From Odontesthes bonariensis (Eukaryota; Chordata; Actinopteri; Atheriniformes; Atherinopsidae), in the NCBI RefSeq assembly GCF_027942865.1, contig NC_134515.1:18312227-18376226 (forward strand): a stretch of 64,000 bases of DNA, in the 5' to 3' direction. Of the stretch, positions 45,265-48,200 are shown piece after piece; the stretch's first letter is position 1, and each line of letters opens with the position of its first letter. Below the pieces are notes generated by a model. That model was given only the letters and a program-made list of their open reading frames with translations. It did no database searches and had not been told where the DNA came from. The position numbers were made by a program, and so were the translations under genes.

Positions 45265-48200
45265 CTAGAGGGCAATCCAGGGGTGGCGCAAGCACTCCGC
45301 TGCTGTGGCTCTTTTCTCGGGGACCAGCTCCAGCATGGGGAGCAGAAAATCGGCAAAGCACTCCGCTTCCTCGCGGGGCCACTCGTACTTGTCCACCAGC
45401 ACCTCCAGCAGGCCCCACGGCTTCAGCTTAGTGATGTGTTTCAAATCACCTGCAGACCAACCAAACAGACGGCGCCATCTCAGAGAGCAATCCAGCTACT
45501 GAACTCAACTTGTTCCCATCTTTAAAGAAGTCGATACCTGGTACAGATGTCTGAGAAAACATCTTAAATACGCAATCTTTACATGAAAAATTAACATTAT
45601 AGTTTTTAGCTGTTTAAAAAAAAATTAAAAATATTTAAATCAATATAGTTGTGACTTCAGTCTGCACATGACACAATCTACAGTATAGACCTAAAAAAAA
45701 AAAAAAAAACGAACTAGTTTTGACATTTAGACCTTTTTTCCTTGCTTGCTATTTTTATTATTATTTTTTTTTTACCTTTCTTGGTGAAAAAATCCTTGGA
45801 ATATTTGCCGGTAATTATGAGCTTGCGTGGGACACTCCCCAGCAGCTCAATGATCAGCGCTATATGATCTGCACAGCAGATGGTTGCAGGAGGAGAAAAC
45901 ACAGACAACAGATTGATCAGAGTGTGTCGAGGTCACAGGCCCACTCTGGGTGGGGGGCCGGGGGGGCCGAGGGAGTGAAGGGTCGAGCTGACAGCACAAA
46001 CTGTTTCAGGACATTAATGGATGATTATTAAACAAGGCCACCAGGCGTTATAAGAGCTCAACATTTTAATAAAGAATCTGTTCCCAGTTGTTTTTTTGTA
46101 TGCAGCCGTTCAGGTAGAAAATTGCCCTATTAGTGATTACAATTTCAAACTACAGGGGGAGTAGGGGGACTTTCCAAAACGGATAATGTGATTCTACACG
46201 GTCTTTGCACTGTGAGCTGTTCAGATCAGAAGTCAGACGGGGTCTGCCCGCTCTTCTAACTTCTTTCTTTCATTTGTTTCTTTCCCACATCACATGCATC
46301 AGAATTCATGTGTTCATATGTTTAAAAATGTGACTAACAGTCTCCCCTCCCCCCCATTATGTATATTACATTAAATGTGGGGTCTTGGTTCAAGCATACT
46401 TTGACCTATAGACACAAACTCTCTCTTGAGCTTCTAAGGAATCAAATATAAATGTAAAACTAATTTGGCAAATGTTTATGGGACTGATCAATTTATTCCT
46501 TAACTTGTTCATTCCTTATAGATTAATTAACTCCTACTTAATACCCTGCGTCATTTTTCAAGTTTCATCAAGACTCAAGTTACTCTGTTGGAGGTGGGAA
46601 ACTGATTTTTCTTCTGCAACTCGCATACACGCGAGATTTTAAACTGTAGAAATTCCACTACAAGCTGCTACTTTTTTATTTGCTTTCTTTGAGCTAAAAT
46701 CAAATAACCCTACTGAAATCAGATCACAGCTGATTCAAGGATCCAGCCAAGTCATCGAACAAAAACTTCGGAGGAACCATTTCAGCCTCTAACAGCCAGT
46801 CTTTGGCAGAACTACTGAAGACCTGAATCAATGTCTGGTGGCTCTGTAAAAAAATATATATATATAATGGTCTGCGTTGATTATACCAACTGGTCTGATG
46901 GGTCTGAATGTGCTGACAGGATCCGACCCCCACCCTCCTGTCCACCTTTTCCAGAGTGAGCCACAGACAGAGGGGTGGCATACCTCTCTTGGTGAAGTAT
47001 TCCTGAGAGTATTTCCCATTCAGCACATAATGGCGAGGAATTTTACCAAGCAACTCAATTATGAGAGCAAGATGGTCTGGAAATGAGGCACATCAGAGGA
47101 GGGAAGAGAAGACCAGAAGGCACAGGGACAGAGTTTGGAGAGGAGACGGCAAGAATGGAACAATGTATTAGGAACAATGGATGATGATGATGATGATGGC
47201 CTAGTATGATGAGGAGCAAATGCATTAAAAAAAAAAAAAAGATTCTTTCTATATGCCAGAAACTTGTAACAGTGGCAGAGGTGCAGGCGATACACTTCCA
47301 CTTAGGAGAAAAAAATAGTTACAATGAATGTTGAGACATAGTAATATTAAGGCTCAATTAGAAACAGCAGCGATAAAAGAGAAGCACTTGATTAATAAGC
47401 TAATGTGCTGTAAATTAAGTAGGCACTTCACCGCCGCCTAAAGCCCAAATGTCAGCACATACCTGGCATGCCGCAGCAGAATCAAGTTAGTACAGCAGCT
47501 GCAGGAAAAGCAGCTCGCAGATATTTACAGTGTGAGGAGGTGAGCAAGGAAACGAGGAGCGGGAGTGAGGAGCAGATGAACAGAGGAAGTGAGGAAGTGA
47601 AAAGATGGCCCCATTTCGGTAAAGAAGAGGTGGTTGGAGGAGTTCGGAAATAAGCCCAGGAATACTGAAACAGTTCATCACATGATTGATACGTCACAAT
47701 TTTTCTTCCATATTTGAGACCATCTGAAATCACTGTAATGCAGGGGCTCATTCACTGTAAAAGTGCTAAAAGCAAAGATCACTGCAACTTACCGTGCAAA
47801 ATGCACAATAATTTGGAGTGATGGTCACATTTTGCATACTGTGAAACTCATAGGATGTGTAGATATTTGAAATGAATTATAATGACAATAAAACACAAGT
47901 CAGAGCCAATTTATCATGACAAAAACCGTCAGGGTTTTCACAGTAGCAACAACTGTAAAAGTCTACTGCTAACACTAGCTGGCTCTCAACAGTGAGGCAT
48001 ACACTGCTGGATTGCAACCAAACATAGTGTTTAGGATTAATGGTGTGTAGTTAAAGCGTGAAGGAAAAAAAAAAACGGAAGAGGAAGATGAAGCCATACC
48101 TTCATCCCTTGAATAATCTTCCCCAGAATGTGGTTCAAACAGGTAGTCCCCAGTGACGAGCTCAAAGGCCTAACAGAACAACAAAATGACAATAAACACA

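Follow-up and report, generated by a model that had tools for sequence, protein, structure and literature searches.

The window analysed here, a 64,000-nucleotide stretch of the Odontesthes bonariensis genome, carries the srpk1 gene on its minus strand. The parts of this gene recognized in the window include a glycine-loop exon piece (53766..53867), a catalytic-loop exon piece with the motif HTDIKPEN (51400..51564), exon 14 (48100..48169, with the donor after 48100) and the last coding exon, exon 16 (45265..45449), which ends in HPWIAL and contains the stop codon. Exons 14 and 16 are common exons, and between them lie two versions of exon 15, the upstream 15a (46984..47076) and the downstream 15b (45776..45868), separated by a GT-AG intron of 1115 nt (45869..46983); all these features are on the minus strand. 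The kinase blocks outside exon 15 matched human SRPK1 at 233/265 and SRPK2 at 225/265 positions, and in the tree of kinase blocks the gene formed a clade with a copy on contig C3 and human SRPK1 (SH-aLRT 94, ultrafast bootstrap 77). The window gene was therefore identified as srpk1.

The neighbouring genes are an LHFPL-family gene on the plus strand (40316-40987 and 41844-42155, with Pfam PF10242 on the first open frame) and mapk14, one exon of which lies in the window at 62600-62680. This LHFPL-srpk1-mapk14 arrangement presumably matches the human neighbourhood. Just past the window end, mapk14 also bears tandem homologous exons (window coordinates 65013-65090 and 64563-64634, locus L030); when each is read together with the exon that follows, human p38alpha structures are the best match of the upstream copy and salmon p38a (PDB 3oht) that of the downstream copy. 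Paired C-lobe exons thus occur in two kinase genes that are neighbours.

The two versions of srpk1 exon 15

Exons 15a and 15b are both 93 nt long and in phase 1 at either end, where they join exon 14 and exon 16 (first base 45449), and each has an AG acceptor, a GT donor and an open frame. They are identical at 19/31 residues and 60/93 bases, and 11 of the 19 common residues are encoded by different codons. These values were re-measured and agree with the original prediction, which had described two such exons with intact splice sites and had considered the pair old, with both copies kept by selection. This latter view is borne out by the distribution of the 33 base differences, which fall 8/5/20 on codon positions 1/2/3, and by a simulation in which a fraction of 1.3e-4 of 200,000 random substitution sets of equal size left the frame open and preserved 19/31 residues or more. 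The residue changes are found at exon positions 3, 12, 13, 16-20, 25-27 and 31. Constraint was also detected between the a exons of srpk1 and srpk2 (see below), and likewise between their b exons (simulation p <= 4e-5). As expected of tandem homologous exons, 15a and 15b are adjacent, of common origin, equal in length and phase, provided with compatible splice sites and under coding constraint in both copies. On these sequence measures they are confirmed as a real, old and selected tandem exon pair.

No third copy of exon 15 was found in the profile scan between exons 14 and 16, where the next best score was 1.0. All four possible combinations (15a, 15b, both or none) keep the srpk1 frame, so that exclusive use of the two exons would not be enforced by the frame.

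A second pair in srpk2 and the probable origin of the duplication

A search of the Odontesthes bonariensis genome (945 Mb, 187 contigs), in which the best candidates were scored and the counts are therefore lower bounds, gave ten matches. Two of them are exon 16, and the others represent at least eight copies of exon 15 at at least six genes. The eight copies found are all 93 nt long with AG/GT borders (8/8). A second pair is present in the srpk2 gene on contig C12 (25287149-25287247 and 25287545-25287646; positions 3151-3243 and 3547-3639 of locus L009). As in srpk1, exon a precedes exon b, and both have 93 nt and the srpk1 phase; they lie 303 nt apart, separated by a GT-AG intron. The kinase blocks of this gene without exon 15 matched human SRPK2 at 248/265 and SRPK1 at 223/265 positions, and a query including exon a reached a PDB bit score of 788 to SRPK2 versus 702 to SRPK1. 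In the kinase-block tree, the C12 gene and human SRPK2 are adjacent, and the node that separates them, with 65/40, gives no support for a clade.

Exon a of srpk2 is identical to human SRPK2 at 30/31 residues, while its exon b shares 25/31 residues with human SRPK1 and 19/31 with human SRPK2, as well as 22/31 with 15b and 24/31 with the C3 copy. The srpk1-like gene on C3 has a single copy of exon 15 found, which is b-type, and three further SRPK genes have one found copy each, nearer the a-type; between exons 14 and 16 of these four single-copy genes, no relic of a lost partner exon rose above noise. Human SRPK1 structures show the b-type and human SRPK2 structures the a-type. On contig C15, a divergent SRPK-like gene at C15:8.28M (L014) has visible catalytic motifs and weakly conserved N-lobe pieces (40-55% to srpk1). 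For the SRPK gene at C15:0.57M (L013, L025, L026), which we take to be SRPK3-like, the roughly 20 kb ahead of the C-lobe exons yielded no N-lobe exons. In a search for relatives elsewhere, 18 pattern matches on viral contigs and 7 on genome contigs were obtained, none of which was confirmed.

It had been proposed that 15b resembles mammalian SRPK1 and that 15a is SRPK2-like. The former holds, 15b being identical to human SRPK1 at 27/31 residues, while the latter stands in part. Exon 15a shares I13, H16, L19 and R31 with SRPK2-type exons, but it also shares L5, T29 and K30 with SRPK1, matches human SRPK1 and SRPK2 alike (21/31) and lacks the H601 equivalent. The tree of the 31-residue segment that had been suggested as a check neither favoured nor rejected a grouping of 15a with the a-type exons (AU p 0.098 with 11 sequences; 0.116, 0.116 and 0.173 with nine). 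Judged by sequence, the clear SRPK1-type/SRPK2-type pair is that of the srpk2 gene on C12, not that of srpk1.

The exon 15 trees rest on 31 columns from one fish species and human proteins and have limited power. In the best tree, 15a is placed between a b clade (15b, C12 b, the C3 copy and human SRPK1; ultrafast bootstrap 86) and the remaining exons. A clade of C12 exons a and b with human SRPK2 had an AU p of 1.3e-4 (LG+G4, 11 sequences), and when the clade was reduced to these two C12 exons, AU p values of 0.0020, 0.0025 and 0.0022 were obtained (LG+G4, JTT+G4 and WAG; nine sequences). An independent duplication within SRPK2 is thus rejected by these four analyses. Separate clades for srpk1 and srpk2 jointly gave AU p values of 1.3e-4 (11 sequences) and 0.0020, 0.0027 and 0.0004 (nine sequences). 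With 15a and 15b as sisters, the values were 0.117 (LG+G4, 11 sequences) and 0.066, 0.025 and 0.024 (LG+G4, JTT+G4 and WAG, nine sequences), by which an independent duplication within SRPK1 is only disfavoured (AU p 0.024-0.117). Grouping all SRPK1-gene exons together without C12 b gave 0.036 (11 sequences) and 0.062, 0.060 and 0.055 (nine sequences).

Since the sisterhood of 15a and 15b was not rejected in two of the four analyses, those with LG+G4, srpk1 might have acquired its pair by a duplication of its own, with convergence making it resemble that of srpk2, and some exons do seem to be duplication-prone (PMC5740500). We regard this as unlikely, because srpk2 b groups with the SRPK1-type exons, the C12 exon clade is rejected (AU p 1.3e-4 to 0.0025) and the two pairs are alike in order, length, phase and tract asymmetry. 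Somewhat less likely still, an SRPK1-type exon may have entered srpk2 by gene conversion or copying after the genes separated. Such an event would explain why srpk2 b is of SRPK1-type, but it requires a whole spliceable exon to land in the homologous intron. It would also not be recent: the third positions of srpk2 b differ at 16/31 from 15b and at 18/31 from the C3 copy, compared with 15 between 15b and the C3 copy. A single duplication before SRPK1 and SRPK2 separated, followed by loss of one copy in some genes, is the simplest account. As an exon pair is present in both srpk1 and its sister srpk2, an exon swap by alternative splicing has probably been available to the SRPK family since before the split.

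The exon 15 segment and the proposed choice between its versions

From the published numbering of D564, E571, K602, K604 and K615, exon 15 corresponds to residues 564-594 of human SRPK1. It covers helix alphaG and the residues that follow, in keeping with the earlier placement of the segment in the kinase C-lobe, and adjoins the docking surface. The docking groove of SRPKs is described as built from alphaG and the helical insert (PMC2667211), and D564 and E571, on alphaG, contact docking arginines (PMC11809128). Groove residues mutated in binding studies include D548, D564, E571 and K615 and their SRPK2 equivalents (PMC10878513, PMC11211491). The residues D1 and E8 of the exon, which correspond to D564 and E571, are invariant in 8/8 fish exon 15 copies found, so the exon swap keeps these two groove residues. 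L568 of SRPK1 versus H601 of SRPK2, at the centre of the groove, is reported as a key groove difference and associated with differing processivity (PMC11211491). This residue is exon position 5, which is Leu in 15a, 15b and srpk2 b and His in srpk2 a; with its Leu, 15a does not have the SRPK2-type groove. Choosing between the two srpk2 exons would therefore change a residue for which an effect on the enzyme has already been reported. A docking effect of the srpk1 swap is conjecture, because the reported groove residues are identical in 15a and 15b, and for the positions at which these exons differ no role was found in the sources consulted.

The two exons differ markedly in what precedes them. 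A pyrimidine-rich segment of 66 nt (47095..47160, minus strand) lies upstream of 15a within a 122-nt AG-free stretch, versus a 12-nt pyrimidine run (45888..45899, minus strand) in a 73-nt AG-free stretch upstream of 15b. In srpk2, the corresponding segments measure 118 nt for exon a and 8 nt for exon b, with AG-free stretches of 292 and 79 nt, and the pyrimidine segments of the four single-copy exons measure 7-18 nt; these lengths come from our own simple scoring, not from the tool of PMC5224494, and are not strictly comparable with published ones. Both pairs thus show the much longer tract on one homologue that characterizes U2AF-regulated tandem exons.

For comparison, 57 acceptors were scored in six SRPK genes, 53 of them as controls, with heuristic placement by which a few may be wrong. 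The control AG-free stretches had a median of 32 nt and top values of 125, 107 and 95 nt, the longest, which exceeds that of 15a, being that of exon 15 in C15:8.28M, a single-copy exon preceded by a TA repeat. The stretches of the duplicated exons were longer than those of the controls (one-sided Mann-Whitney p 0.0017 with all four included and 0.0013 with the a exons alone), with the b exons (73 and 79 nt) inside the control range. The pyrimidine share of the last 100 nt was 0.77 for 15a and 0.91 for srpk2 a, versus a control median of 0.59 (p 0.0027); two controls, with 0.87 and 0.80, were richer than 15a. The b exons, with 0.65 and 0.54, did not differ from the controls (p 0.38). Donor scores, from an approximate weight matrix of our own, were 3.45 (srpk1) and 0.31 (srpk2) for the a exons, 3.83 and 3.75 for the b exons and 3.55-5.72 for the single-copy exons, so that the difference within srpk1 is slight. 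Predicted openness of the upstream 100 nt was 0.475 and 0.502 for the a exons, 0.397 and 0.400 for the b exons and 0.325-0.474 for the single-copy exons. PTB-like motifs showed no excess at the a exons (4 and 5, with controls up to 14). The 300 nt before and the 120 nt after 15a, 15b and srpk2 a contain no Rbfox-like GCATG, and one lies 58 nt upstream of srpk2 b.

Other mechanisms of exclusion were considered and rejected. At 1115 nt in srpk1 and 303 nt in srpk2, the intervening introns contradict an exclusion based on insufficient intron length, and both are GT-AG, so that their borders do not indicate a U2/U12 mismatch. Competing RNA structure was set aside as well, the 15 inverted-repeat pairs at 45400-48200 including many A/T runs and coming from a single species. 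A 21-nt pair with 86% complementarity was noted between 46996-47016, in 15a, and 47646-47666, in the upstream intron, and may be due to chance. In OGDH, a distant branch point reportedly lies in the intron between the exclusive exons (PMC7969005); an arrangement of this kind misfits here, because the longest AG-free stretches precede the upstream exon.

In our judgement, 15a and 15b are rather likely to be a functional and mutually exclusive pair that arose from a duplication probably older than the SRPK1/SRPK2 split and is chosen by competition at the pyrimidine tracts. In this way SRPK1 would come in two forms with different versions of helix alphaG and of the stretch behind it, next to the acidic groove in which arginine-rich substrates are held. 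The upstream exon a would have a long pyrimidine-rich 3' splice-site region, and exon b a short one with a somewhat better 5' splice site; pyrimidine-tract binders, namely U2AF and its rivals, and SR proteins such as SRSF3, would compete and so decide between a and b. Competition of this type has been reported for U2AF1, FYN, TPM and MAPK14. According to PMC5224494, the homologue with the longer tract tends to be repressed and that with the shorter tract activated among U2AF-responsive tandem exons, MAPK14 9a/9b included; ACOX1 is an exception for tract length, and TPM1 and P4HA1 are exceptions for the AG-free stretch of the repressed exon. SRSF3 was needed to repress one homologue in most of the U2AF-responsive pairs (PMC5224494). 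The swap would spare D564 and E571 and alter the surface after them, and in srpk2 it would also flip H601/L568. Under this scheme both versions were retained in srpk1 and srpk2 of this fish, the b-type alone in the C3 srpk1-like gene and a-type-like copies alone in the other three.

That 15a is instead a dead or unused copy, with srpk1 relying on 15b only, would agree with the b-type segment of human SRPK1 structures. This is very improbable in view of the open frame, the excess of third-position differences and the simulation result given above, the intact splice sites and the constraint against the srpk2 a exon. Least probable of all is common inclusion of both exons, which would keep the frame and add a 31-residue repeat to the C-lobe, but would put a second helix alphaG into a packed domain and contrasts with the one copy seen in the four other SRPK genes found and in human and yeast structures. 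By analogy with known pairs, mutual exclusion of 15a and 15b is likely.

SRPKs phosphorylate SR proteins and thereby have a broad influence on splicing, and a switch by splicing next to their own docking groove would allow direct control. Feedback of SR proteins on the exon choice is conceivable; if the proposed scheme is true and it is SR proteins, themselves SRPK substrates, that read the choice, these kinases would have a part in determining how they hold their substrates. The srpk1 and srpk2 pairs would also offer an evolutionary explanation for the divergence of this segment, L568/H601 included, between the mammalian proteins SRPK1 and SRPK2, and the paired exons could serve as matched natural variants for testing its function. 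More speculatively, and with considerable doubt on our part, the SRPK1/SRPK2 ancestor might have had a splicing-controlled docking switch, of which the docking and processivity difference of the mammalian enzymes would be a leftover frozen one way in each gene, while this fish would still have what it takes to operate the switch in both genes.

Comparison with known exon pairs

The srpk pairs are best counted among the mutually exclusive homologous exons, a class already known. The original prediction knew of no described pair in SRPK1, a statement that has to be qualified: a mutually exclusive exon cluster of SRPK1 is named in the mammalian core set and is absent in Glires (Hatje et al. 2017, PMC5740500). 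It concerns the same gene, and although the exon is not named in the text, identity with 15a/15b is plausible. In our literature search, no description of a 15a/15b-like pair in SRPK1 or of an SRPK2 pair was found among the matches listed, and the term 'SRPK' is absent from the main text of PMC9741552, PMC4465641 and PMC7954323. A zebrafish splicing atlas mentions srpk1a and srpk1b for expression (PMC9304896). As far as these sources go, what is new here is the second pair, in srpk2 of the same fish, with the same order and a downstream copy of SRPK1-type.

Similar pairs exist in other kinases. MAPK14 (p38alpha; CSBP1/CSBP2) is a CMGC kinase in whose catalytic domain, as with 15a/15b, two homologous exons, 9a and 9b, stand in tandem; they presumably cover the same alphaG region, and exons 6a/6b of JNK (MAPK8/MAPK9) presumably involve it too. 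As in the srpk pairs, a long tract is opposed to a short one in MAPK14, which is U2AF-responsive (PMC5224494). MAPK14 differs in belonging to another kinase family, with a pair that was duplicated separately, and in that structures of both p38 forms have been solved (PMC4465641), whereas none was found for the srpk1 15a form. The JNK exons 6a/6b are likewise alternative and are listed with different substrate binding (PMC8699841), and variants of Mapk9 and Mapk10 in the catalytic domain have been described (PMC1431701).

The evolutionary fate of the copies is best compared with FYN 7a/7b, of which the paralogues SRC, YES1, FGR and FRK each kept one exon; a similar fate of one copy per relative is described for calcium-channel genes (PMC9741552). 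We propose that human SRPK1 and SRPK2 went the same way. The FYN exons differ from 15a/15b in that they encode the linker and ATP-site region and not a docking surface. With their two pairs, SRPKs would be further kinases, next to p38 and JNK, in which exons of the catalytic domain come in pairs.
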